From assembly GCA_946183145.1 (NCBI GenBank), contig CAMGZM010000008.1, positions 1 to 64,000 of the forward strand: a stretch of DNA of 64,000 nucleotides, written 5' to 3'. Origin of the DNA: an uncultured Fretibacterium sp. GTDB lineage: Bacteria > Synergistota > Synergistia > Synergistales > Aminobacteriaceae. The translations under genes were made by a program, and so were the position numbers. This document shows positions 55,945 through 59,336 of the stretch, in pieces (the stretch's first letter is position 1; each line of letters starts with the position of its first letter). The notes below the pieces were generated by a model. It did no database searches. It was not told the origin of the DNA and was given only the letters and a program-made list of their open reading frames with translations.

Positions 55945-56460
55945 TCAGAAGCTCCAGCGGCTTATTATTCGTTGGAGGAGCTTTGCGATTTTGTTCTCGT
56001 GATTTCTCCTGTAAGTCAGAATGATGGAGTAAATTTTTCCCTCACGAATGAACGCCGTAACTTTTTGTGCGTTCTGTGAGTCTAAGTTATACGTTACTGA
56101 TGATACCCGTATATTTCCGAACTGCAATTCACCCGCCGAGTCTCTGTGTGATAAACCGCCTCTCATTGAACGGGCTATATCAGCTGCAACCTCAGAAGAC
56201 TTTTTTTCGGGCGCGGGCCAGTAAGTGAGAATCGAGAGCGTGTCATTTCCTTCCTGAGCTGAAAGAAGCGAGCGGCAATACACGCCTTGACCGTAAGCAT
56301 TCTCAAGAGCGGGTGAACTTTCTGCTATGACATTCCACGATGAAGGGAGCATTATTGTCCCTGCGGATTCAAGCCGTATTCTTCTCCACGGAATCGGGGC
56401 GGCTGCACAGCAAACAAGAAAAAATACGACAAAAACAACAGCGCGGTAAAATTTTCTCAT
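55945..56460 (-). CDS. Hypothetical secreted protein
   Basis: A 171-residue exported protein. The N-terminal hydrophobic segment AVVFVVFFLVCCAAAPI, with two Cys, could be a signal peptide or lipoprotein-type signal. The rest is a mix of strands and helices (GTIMLPSSWNVIAESS, SILTYWPAPEKKSSEVAADIARSM, VTAFIREGKIYSIILTYRR) reminiscent of small DcrB/PsbP-like surface proteins, but I do not assign a family. It ends 5 bases from the convergent bioY stop. Confidence 0.7.
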   Translation of the reverse strand: MRKFYRAVVFVVFFLVCCAAAPIPWRRIRLESAGTIMLPSSWNVIAESSPALENAYGQGVYCRSLLSAQEGNDTLSILTYWPAPEKKSSEVAADIARSMRGGLSHRDSAGELQFGNIRVSSVTYNLDSQNAQKVTAFIREGKIYSIILTYRRNHENKIAKLLQRIISRWSF

Positions 56461-56569
56461 GGTGCTACGTCTCTCCTTAAGTTGTCAAAAAAATTTGGGG
56501 GAATGAAGTGGATCGGATTATAGCACAGTGAACAGAAATTTATTCCTGCGTGAATTATCAAAAAACGGC

Positions 56570-56931
56570 GTAAGCCCCCTAGCTTTAGCTATCGGGATAT
56601 AAGCCGCAATGTAGTATAATATTTTTTGCGGTTAGTCGTTCCGCATTAACAAAAATGTAGCAACACTATCAAATGCAACATGGGGTAACACTTGCCTCTC
56701 GCCGCAGCGTAGCACTTAGAGATTTTTATCTTCGGACTGAGTGAACTATGACGGGTTCTATGAGAAAAGGTGTAAGAAGCAAATCAAAGTAATGTTGTGT
56801 CCCTTAGGGGGCTATACAGTAGGGGCGGACTGGCCACGCCTTTGAGAATAAGGATGCCTGTATACGCAGGTGGAAACTTAAAGTCAAACTTCTCAAGAAC
56901 CCCCTGCGTTTAGGCTTCGGGAGGCTCAGAG
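56570..56931 (+). mobile_element. Miniature IS200/IS605-type element without transposase or nuclease gene
   Basis: Two similar hairpins in the same orientation bound this stretch, as in the left and right ends of IS200/IS605 elements: 56575-56596 (CCCCCTAGCTTTAGCTATCGGG) and 56900-56924 (CCCCCTGCGTTTAGGC, then TTCGGGAGG). The region between has no open frame of note; it holds a second hairpin GCGG/CCGC (56628-56644), a -10-like TATAAT (56616) and a structured RNA region. It contains no tnpA, tnpB or iscB remnant that I can see. It ends 0-5 bases before the stop codon of the minus-strand ParA gene. No target duplication is expected for this class. Identification is by eye from the end hairpins and not by database match. 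Confidence 0.6.
56650..56931 (+). ncRNA. Omega-RNA-like structured RNA (TnpB/IscB guide-RNA type)
   Basis: Nested complementary pairs define a multibranched RNA: CAACAT (56676-56681) with ATGTTG (56792-56797); inside it ACACTT (56688-56693) with AGGTGT (56768-56773); inside that CACTTAG (56713-56719) with CTGAGTG (56737-56743), capped by AGAT/ATCT, and GAAC (56743-56746) with GTTC (56755-56758). Downstream are CCTG/CAGG (56857-56870) and the terminal C-tract/G-tract hairpin. The T-G pairs are allowed only on the plus strand, which gives the direction. If it is a TnpB-type RNA, the guide would begin right after about 56931. TnpB-type and IscB (HEARO)-type cannot be told apart here. Confidence 0.55.
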
Positions 56932-57864
56932 TTATAGTTTAATTGACTCCAAAAATTCCACGCCCAAATTCTGAAGCTCACCGACTATTTTCCGTGCTGT
57001 AGGCGTGAAAATTTTCGGCCTCGTCAAGACAGCGGGGACTCCTTCTTTCGATGATGGCCCGAACAGTGTCGCGTTGTTCCTCACGAACTGGAAGATGTGA
57101 TAGCCCTTGCTCATGAGTTCAGCTTTGTACTCCTGCTGCGCTGATACAGGCTCATCACCCTTGCGAATTTCCGCCATCATCGGAACGACTCCCAGCATCG
57201 TCAGAAACACAGGGAGATAACGCGAGTCCCTGAGATTGTCGCGGTGATTGTGATATTCATCAAGAAATTCATCAACATTCTTTCTCAGTTCCTCAACACC
57301 AAGCGTTGAAAGATAATCCAGCTTTGCGGGGACAATGTAGTAACCGCTCGCGAGAATTGCATTTTTCACAGCGGCGTTGAAAGTCGGCGGGCAGTCAATG
57401 AGAACGAGATCATATTTATTCTCTAACTCTTCAAGAGAATGTTTCAGGTAGCTGTAAGTTTTGAGGAAAGTTGCGGAGTGCATTGTAGTATTTGAAACGT
57501 TGATAAGCCCGGCAAGTCGTATGTCAATGTCAATGAGTCCCAAGTGCGAGCTTATGAGATCAAGTTTTCCGTCATTGAAGCTGATTACGTTTCCGGGATT
57601 GAGATGTATTACGATGTCAGAAAGTGAAAGTATTTCGTCAGCTCCTTTTATGATTGGGTCAAAATAATTCTTCATGGTCTTTGTGTCTTTGTACTTGTCG
57701 CGCCAGTATTCAGGACTCATGAAGCTGAATGTGAGCTGAGTCTGAGGGTCTAAATCTATCATCAGGACTCTTTTTCCCTGCGACGCTGAATAAGCTCCGA
57801 GATTAGCCGTGAGAGTCGTTTTTCCGACTCCGCCCTTGTAGTTGATGACTGATACGATTTTCAT
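56932..57864 (-). CDS. ParA/Soj-family ATPase (orphan)
   Basis: A 310-residue Walker-type ATPase. The deviant Walker A is KGGVGKTT with the signature Lys (residues 10-17), followed by IDLDPQTQLTFS and LVLIDCPPTFN. The C-terminal half is longer than in Soj and ends LGVEFLESIKL directly at the mobile element; the last residues could have been set by the insertion. It follows the other ParA-type gene by 83 bases, with a terminator between, so it may have its own promoter. No ParB or parS-like site is nearby. It may position a non-chromosomal cargo. Confidence 0.87.
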   Translation of the reverse strand: MKIVSVINYKGGVGKTTLTANLGAYSASQGKRVLMIDLDPQTQLTFSFMSPEYWRDKYKDTKTMKNYFDPIIKGADEILSLSDIVIHLNPGNVISFNDGKLDLISSHLGLIDIDIRLAGLINVSNTTMHSATFLKTYSYLKHSLEELENKYDLVLIDCPPTFNAAVKNAILASGYYIVPAKLDYLSTLGVEELRKNVDEFLDEYHNHRDNLRDSRYLPVFLTMLGVVPMMAEIRKGDEPVSAQQEYKAELMSKGYHIFQFVRNNATLFGPSSKEGVPAVLTRPKIFTPTARKIVGELQNLGVEFLESIKL

Positions 57865-57910
57865 TTATGGTTATGACTCCTTAGTGTGGATTTTGGGATT
57901 ATATCACGCA

Positions 57911-57940
57911 AAAATTTACCCCCAGAAAACTCCGGGGGCA
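57911..57940 (-). terminator. Terminator between the two ParA-type genes
   Basis: On the minus strand CCCCCGGAG and CTGGGGG form a stem (57918-57937), followed by TAAATTTTTG. It separates the second ParA gene from the first in transcription. Confidence 0.75.
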
Positions 57941-57947
57941 TTCGTTT

Positions 57948-59336
57948 CTACATATACACTTCAGCGGCTCCATATTCGTCCCACTTGATGACGCACCTTA
58001 ACGGCTCAATAATCTGATCGGGGTACATTACCGGCCAGAATGTATCAGACTCATCATTCAGAACGTAGAAAGTGTACCTGTCCTTGTCGGAGTCTTCAAA
58101 GTCTTCACGCAATGAGCGCACCTCAATTTCTCCGCGTGAAACGTCATGAACAGATCCGAGAAGCTGAATCCACATCGGTTTTTCCGTCTCAGGAAGCATA
58201 TCTATTACGGCCTGTTTTATGCTCTGCACATAAGGCGGATCAGGCTCAACGACTGGTGAAGAAAGATTGATTGAGGGAAGCTCAGTTTTTGCGGGAACGG
58301 GAGCGGGCGCGGGTTCTGACTCTGACTCTTCCGGGATATTTTCGGGTTCACTCTCATCATCAGCAGAAATGATTTCTTGCGGTGATTCCTCTTCAGGCTC
58401 GGAAATGATTTCGGGTTCAGGCGTTGAAACTGCAATTTCCGGCTCGGACTCTTTCTCTGAAGCTGTAATTTCTGACTCTTGCGGTGTGATTTCGGGTTCG
58501 TTTTCTGTTTTGCCTGACGTGATAATCTTCTGGAGTTTTGCCAGCGGTGTAGACGGTTCACTCTCAGGAATATAGCCATCCTCAAAGCGTTTCAGAAATT
58601 CCTGCGTTACGACCCTGTAGCAGTCCGCGCCTTTTGATTTCGGCTCATACTCAAAGATTGACATTCCCATACTTGACGCTTCAACAATGCTTATGTTCTG
58701 GCGTATGTAGCTCTCAAACAGGAGTCCCCCGAATGATTTTCTCACTTCCTCGTAAATCTGACGGGAAATATACAGCCTCGGATTGTAGTTTGTCATGAGG
58801 ATTCCGCCGATTTCGAGAGAAGGATTCAGCCTTTCGCGGAACGTACCCATTGAGCGATCGAGGAGCCTCAAGCCGAACAAGCTGTAGAATCCTCCGTCCA
58901 TAGGCACAATGATTTTCTGACATGCCGCAAGTACATTCTGCGTGAAGATTCCTAACTGCGGGGGGCTGTCGAGGAGTATATAGTCGTAACGGTCAGCCTT
59001 GACTTTTGCGAGTGCGTCGCGGAGTGCTGTCTTCCTGCTGATTGGCCCGTCCTCGTTCAGTTCGGCCATGACGAGATTCAAAGAGCTTGGCACAATGTCA
59101 ATGCCTTCTTTACGTGTTATGATGTCGTCCCATTCAGCCGCGCCCGACAAGAGATCGAACACCTGCGGATCTGTTGACGATGGACTTATCCCGAAACCCG
59201 CGCTCAAGTTGCTTTGCGGATCCATATCGACAACAGCAATTTTTTTCCCGACTTTTGTCAATGCCGCCGCTATATTCTGGCATGAGGTTGTCTTTCCTAC
59301 ACCGCCCTTAAGATTGCAGAATCCTATTATCATCAT
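57948..59336 (-). CDS. ParA-family ATPase with acidic linker and extra C-terminal domain
   Basis: A 462-residue protein. Residues 1-250 are a ParA ATPase: KGGVGKTTSCQNIAAAL, VVDMDPQSNLSAGFG, YILLDSPPQLG and the C-terminal AKSKGADCYRVVTQEFL-like end (seen here as SKGADCYRVVTQEFLKRF). Residues 270-370 are an acidic Glu/Pro/Ser linker (SEPEI, PEPEIISEPEEES), similar in style to the repeat protein at 13016-14398. Residues 375-462 are a separate small domain (IKQAVIDMLPETEKPMWIQLL, DRYTFYVLNDESDTFWPVMYP) of unknown type. Its start overlaps the TPR gene stop by 4 bases. The fused tail suggests a partner-binding or localisation role. Confidence 0.87.
   Translation of the reverse strand: MMIIGFCNLKGGVGKTTSCQNIAAALTKVGKKIAVVDMDPQSNLSAGFGISPSSTDPQVFDLLSGAAEWDDIITRKEGIDIVPSSLNLVMAELNEDGPISRKTALRDALAKVKADRYDYILLDSPPQLGIFTQNVLAACQKIIVPMDGGFYSLFGLRLLDRSMGTFRERLNPSLEIGGILMTNYNPRLYISRQIYEEVRKSFGGLLFESYIRQNISIVEASSMGMSIFEYEPKSKGADCYRVVTQEFLKRFEDGYIPESEPSTPLAKLQKIITSGKTENEPEITPQESEITASEKESEPEIAVSTPEPEIISEPEEESPQEIISADDESEPENIPEESESEPAPAPVPAKTELPSINLSSPVVEPDPPYVQSIKQAVIDMLPETEKPMWIQLLGSVHDVSRGEIEVRSLREDFEDSDKDRYTFYVLNDESDTFWPVMYPDQIIEPLRCVIKWDEYGAAEVYM

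Follow-up and report, generated by a model that had tools for sequence, protein, structure and literature searches.

The window, 64,000 nucleotides of a contig from an uncultured Fretibacterium sp., contains a stretch with no gene between a gene for a small exported protein (55945-56460, minus strand) and a gene for a ParA-like ATPase (56932-57864, minus strand, AAA_31). The stretch holds a mini-element of 370 bases (56560-56929, plus strand, as are all its parts described below) without genes; its only open reading frame, of ∼ 45 codons, is a TnpB C-terminal remnant. A tandem pair of ParA/Soj-like ATPase genes (56932-59336) adjoins the element. A sequence-only reading of this DNA had noticed the non-coding stretch, two similar hairpins in direct orientation and a plus-strand fold, all of which we confirm. 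It had also placed an ORF-less IS200/IS605-like element at 56570-56931; the element is real, but alignment of eight copies from the same genome puts its boundaries at 56560 and 56929, the left end lying ten bases further out.

BLASTN against the element's own genome gave 20 places, of which seven besides the window cover > 200 bases. The eight aligned copies (window included) are 77-87% identical and have sharp ends and unrelated flanks. Their right ends finish GGGAGGCTCAG, their left ends follow TTATC or a variant. In the window this target/TAM-like pentanucleotide occupies 56555-56559; TTAT[CGTA] stands directly 5' of the left end (LE) in most IS605-type copies, and target duplication was not seen. 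The LE subterminal hairpin (CCCCCTAGCTTTAGCTATCGGG, 56575-56596) is common to a full-length tnpB element (L009) and to Negativicutes minis; the right-end (RE) hairpin (CCCCCTGCGTTTAGGCTTCGGGAGG, 56900-56925) is followed by CTCAG, which closes the element. Both hairpins have the same orientation and are conserved among the copies, as expected for IS200/IS605. In a related species (G028:C39) both neighbouring genes are present and the element is absent from the orthologous site; the gap between the matched parts is 88 bases versus 103 predicted by the element-free query, and the diverged intergenic DNA locates the junction only approximately, not to the exact base. The complete window element is thus a mobile, ORF-less member of the IS200/IS605 type, resembling the PATEs. 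Contig ends at G000:C14:30-102, C14:60277-60344 and G000:C10:1-61 coincide with element copies, which makes it probable that assembly gaps conceal others.

The same genome has, on contig C10, a tnpB gene flanked by counterparts of the left end (q95-147 of the query) and of the mini's last 144 bases, and the IS200/IS605 assignment is borne out by this full element as well as by the copies. Its 436 codons are open, with no internal stop, and the product carries Pfam OrfB_IS605 and a Cas12f1-like TNB domain (phmmer gave no PDB match). This full-length copy carries tnpB only, without a transposase gene; it shares the TTATC and CTCAG boundaries with the mini and reads TTTATC at the left. Positions 56786-56929 of the window, made up of the tnpB 3' end and RE, are 91% identical over 144 nt to the C10 element. 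The tnpB frame that overlaps them (56782-56910) retains 43 codons with 84% identity to residues 392-434 of the C10 TnpB. Judged by this homology, the last ∼ 144 nt of the mini occupy the usual place of a TnpB omega-RNA, with flanking DNA at the guide position. The 20 nt 3' of RE (56930-56949) coincide with the 3' terminus of the neighbouring ParA-like gene, and the flank is unique to each copy; by analogy with TnpB systems they would act as guide. Binding of TnpB by the omega-RNA-like region and directed cleavage are putative for the window element. The idea of a domesticated guide RNA is unsupported, since no two copies share a site or a guide.

The genome encodes four more TnpB genes with ∼ 54% identity to the C10 TnpB; two of these matches have one stop codon, and additional TnpB-like proteins were found by Pfam. 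No intact Y1 transposase was found in the genome. Because its only Y1 match is N-terminally truncated (without the first 46 profile positions), the present-day mobility of the element is doubtful. This shortfall concerns present mobility, the ends themselves being IS200/IS605-type; mobilization in trans, which had been proposed, is plausible historically. The TnpBs of L009 (2448-3755, minus strand) and L156 (1002-2234, plus strand) have GYN at the position expected for the canonical RuvC-II catalytic glutamate, and the activity of the nearest TnpBs is therefore uncertain. A CxxC zinc finger is not evident in either protein. In both, the catalytic role might instead fall to a glutamate preceding YTSK; relocated glutamates have been reported (PMC10711439).

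Upstream of the omega-RNA-like region the mini has its own conserved layout. Hexamer scoring across the elements points to TATAAT (56615-56620) as a candidate -10 box, ∼ 8 nt before a 5' hairpin (UGCGG-UUAGUCGUU-CCGCA, 56627-56645) that is the likely transcript start. The hairpin stem varies with pairing preserved (GCGG/CCGC, GUGG/CCAC, GAGG/CCUC), while the loop UUAGnC is constant. A TTGACA-N16-18-TATAAT match scoring at least 9/12 lies directly upstream in 31 of the 49 elements with a recognisable 5' hairpin, and the promoter-like sequence keeps a steady spacing from the hairpin; many Negativicutes copies have TTGAC- and TAnAAT before it. The window copy has a clear TATAAT and a poor -35, and a generic promoter scan found no promoter in it. 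On the 3' side of the core domain described below follow an omega stem GUGUCCC/GGGGCUAUAC, the stems GGCG/CGCC and UUGAGAA/UUCUCAA, and the RE hairpin (the omega stems were read by eye from the alignment).

Between the 5' hairpin and the omega-RNA-like region lies a pseudoknotted RNA domain (56675-56776), which we refer to as the core and which is missing from the C10 tnpB element. An omega-RNA-like RNA had been suggested for the whole fold; the omega-RNA region indeed adjoins RE, but most of the multibranched fold belongs to this separate domain. The pseudoknot is formed by GGGGU (56682-56686) with GCCUC (56694-56698), and the loop ACACUU (56688-56693) pairs with AGGUGU (56768-56773), ∼ 75 bases downstream. 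Nested stems are enclosed, including CGUAG (56708-56712)/CUAUG and CACUUAG (56713-56719)/CUGAGUG. Two of the pairings drawn beforehand by eye, ACACTT/AGGTGT and CACTTAG/CTGAGTG, covary; the third, CAACAT/ATGTTG, is not conserved, other copies having CAATAC or GAAGTAC.

The evidence for the RNA is covariation. In 24 copies from the genus, 93% of cells are paired under the pseudoknotted model and 31 are double-changed; none of 500 shuffles reaches this. The last pair of the first helix (GGGGN with N'CCUC) varies between A-U, G-C and U-G. With other bacteria included (43 sequences), the count of double-changed cells rises to 119 and double changes affect 19 of the 27 nested pairs, again with 0/500 shuffles (covariance models R1 and R2). 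In one stem the adjacent pairs UA, AU, GC are jointly swapped for CG, GC, AU in 12 to 14 sequences, and the signal is lost when the pairing partners are slid. The core alignments are model-fitted and the shuffle control keeps relatedness in, so that these numbers are biased towards structure; such a covariation pattern in two phyla is nevertheless hard to get otherwise. Folding energy alone is a weak argument (z of -2.0 on the plus strand versus -0.8 on the minus strand), and we judge the RNA real because of the covariation.

Several variants of the core were observed. At L166:365-465 and L138:3316-3411 the apical stem is swapped wholesale with pairing kept (UCCGC/GCGGA, GCGA/UCGC). L199, L200, L201 and L205 form a divergent subtype whose extra hairpin, GGGGUCACCCC or UAGUGGAAG..UCCAC, sits before or inside the ACACU-bearing strand. 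Half-cores (CUUCGGACUGG..GAACUAUGAC) are found in a third setting at L073:2043-2090 and L074:1470-1517 and are followed by AAGCGCAAAAGGCUCACGAGAAGUGAG, a stretch also present in own-genome copy C1; these elements are likely recombinant or decayed.

With the covariance model, 12 of the genus's 43 genomes have the core, against 0/145 for the remaining Synergistota (188 Synergistota genomes in all). Scanning 84,980 species genomes for the pattern added Selenomonadaceae and Veillonellaceae, mostly ruminant-derived, and a refined model matched 24 of 380 genomes of the class Negativicutes. One of these matches (L209, in coding sequence) is probably a false positive, and a further match (L075) is short, chance-like and over a gene start. 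Phages gave no match, viral contigs no pattern match, and in plasmids the matches were limited to the 3' end of a TnpB in Butyrivibrio and an LE-like segment in Helicobacter suis. Wherever it occurs, the core has the left end and promoter on one side and the omega-RNA and right end on the other. The ∼ 72 core loci, which partly overlap one another, contained no intact TnpB gene and at most C-terminal remnants of up to 48 codons; L065 additionally holds the C-terminus of another TnpB, ∼ 700 bases away. Conversely, 12 tnpB-element loci searched with filters off contain no core (best score 11.7 bits, versus at least 33 for members), which rules out a core concealed in tnpB coding sequence. At least two TnpB-like proteins are encoded by 11 of the 12 core-bearing genomes of the genus, while G034, core-bearing and 91% complete, has no TnpB over the cut-off. 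Since TnpB-like proteins exceed the cut-off in 33 of the 43 genomes anyway, this co-occurrence carries little information.

The core is not confined to one transposon family. In three genomes (G010, G003, G022) it is flanked by other ends (L069, L071, L072, L166), and both the LE and RE of these loci are common to L156, L157 and L159, which encode a serine recombinase (PF00239) and TnpB (PF01385). Because their ends match such elements, we assign the four loci to IS607 as mini-IS607; they retain the last ∼ 18 codons of their own tnpB (LIEVCSTPAVYTVK). Core-bearing ORF-less elements thus span several IS605 subfamilies and IS607, in gut bacteria of the Synergistota and Negativicutes. Y1 transposases have no relationship to serine recombinases and act on different ends. 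TnpB and its omega-RNA are all that the two families share, which points away from a role of the core with the transposase and gives the strongest hint that it is tied to the guide RNA and not to transposition.

This recurrence bears directly on one alternative, namely an ordinary non-autonomous PATE that retains its ends and omega remnant because the transposase requires them or because its descent is recent, the core being carried along passively. PATE-like, ends-only IS605 sequences that keep a tnpB 3' remnant have been described (PMC7290912, PMC3119063), and the window element resembles them in lacking an ORF, in its IS605 end hairpins, in keeping the tnpB 3' remnant with RE and in its presumed mobilization in trans. 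Minis without a core also exist (L010:2110-2295, L011:2120-2308, L081, L083, L084); in these the promoter and 5' hairpin abut the omega region, and the core is therefore dispensable for mobility. One of them, in L010, directly precedes an FtsH-like gene and shares its frame. PATEs, however, are ends-only, whereas the window element contains a conserved promoter region, a 5' hairpin and a pseudoknotted RNA domain that recurs across phyla and in IS607 minis. Pairs kept through 119 double-changed cells in two phyla, and the company of two unrelated transposase types, are unexpected of passive cargo; that reading of the core is already disfavoured, and we regard an ordinary PATE as unlikely.

An equally unlikely alternative is a ribozyme role: the core would be an RNA of undescribed type that cleaves or splices itself, and would thereby release a defined 5' end of the guide RNA or, as in IStrons, excise the insert from transcripts. 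IStrons are the one precedent for an RNA module joined to both IS605 and IS607, with ORF-less copies and a member in Selenomonas ruminantium (PMC4227781), and small ribozymes are typically compact nested pseudoknots. The window element, by contrast, has a small pseudoknot in place of a group I intron signature, and its strand order is unlike that of group I. The window copy and many others are intergenic, where splicing is unnecessary, and Rfam gives no group I intron or ribozyme match.

More generally, the core belongs to no Rfam family. Searches of the window, of six relatives and of another eight loci gave no credible match to HEARO, the group I intron, RAGATH-18 or any other Rfam family. 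A group I intron (IStron) is thus unsupported, as is RAGATH-18, whose model matched neither the window nor the mini-IS607 loci; the Pistol ribozyme, suggested by a GUGGUUAG hairpin, has no Rfam match either. The RAGATH-18-derived reRNA of IS607 TnpB is likewise a structured, pseudoknotted guide RNA outside coding sequence in an IS607 setting (PMC11061315); here, in contrast, there is no nuclease gene, and IS605 minis carry the RNA as well. Guide RNAs of either TnpB or IscB had been considered for the window, and only the TnpB-like assignment stands: HEARO/IscB is unsupported, with no Rfam HEARO match up to E 10 and none at the gathering score. ORF-less, omega-RNA-bearing elements exist among HEARO/IscB as they do here, but the relatives of the window element are TnpB and its guide lies on the 3' side. 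A search of open-access papers found no description of the core; we consider it a probably undescribed RNA domain, and an earlier account may exist in subscription papers or preprints.

A decoy or regulator is the least probable alternative; here the mini RNA would titrate TnpB, inhibit it or control full-length elements, and would guide no cleavage. In its favour, the mini and the C10 element have nearly identical scaffolds, and the multiple copies in a genome would vie for TnpB; against it, every mini retains the exact right end and with it the guide position, for which a decoy has no use.

The explanation that we favour, and hold to be reasonably probable, is that the element is the mini-version of a TnpB transposon expressing its own composite guide RNA for TnpB supplied in trans. 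From its sequence, we infer that the mini would transcribe a non-coding RNA of ∼ 300 nt consisting of the 5' hairpin, the pseudoknotted core, the omega-RNA scaffold and a flank-derived guide, and that TnpB encoded elsewhere in the genome would bind the scaffold. Omega-RNA-guided TnpB is thought to retain IS605 elements by cutting chromosomes after their excision; in the same way, TnpB guided by the flank may cut chromosomes that have lost the mini, and repair would restore it. As in TnpB omega-RNAs of the ISDra2 type, the scaffold lies at the tnpB 3' end and RE with the guide 3' of RE; the window element differs in having no tnpB in cis and in the extra 5' core of ∼ 100 nt, which is absent from the tnpB elements scanned. 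In the current view, TnpB guide RNAs are processed in cis from TnpB's own mRNA (PMC10278001). Having no such mRNA to be processed from, the mini would need its own promoter and a free-standing RNA, and the core most likely serves that RNA in 5' stability, folding or loading.

More tentatively, and with somewhat less than even confidence, we speculate that the core represents a new class of RNA domain that makes a TnpB omega-RNA a free-standing, promoter-driven guide. It would have had a single origin and been swapped between IS605 and IS607 minis, and the dispersed nuclease-less elements would form a genome-wide guide set for TnpB acting in trans. That two unrelated transposon families in two phyla carry the core exclusively at loci lacking the nuclease gene suggests such dedicated use as a trans guide. 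If this is true, the layout is reminiscent of an early stage on the way to CRISPR-Cas12, where guide loci are separate, the persistence of parasitic minis would become testable, and nature would provide a model for designing guide RNAs that are compact and separate.
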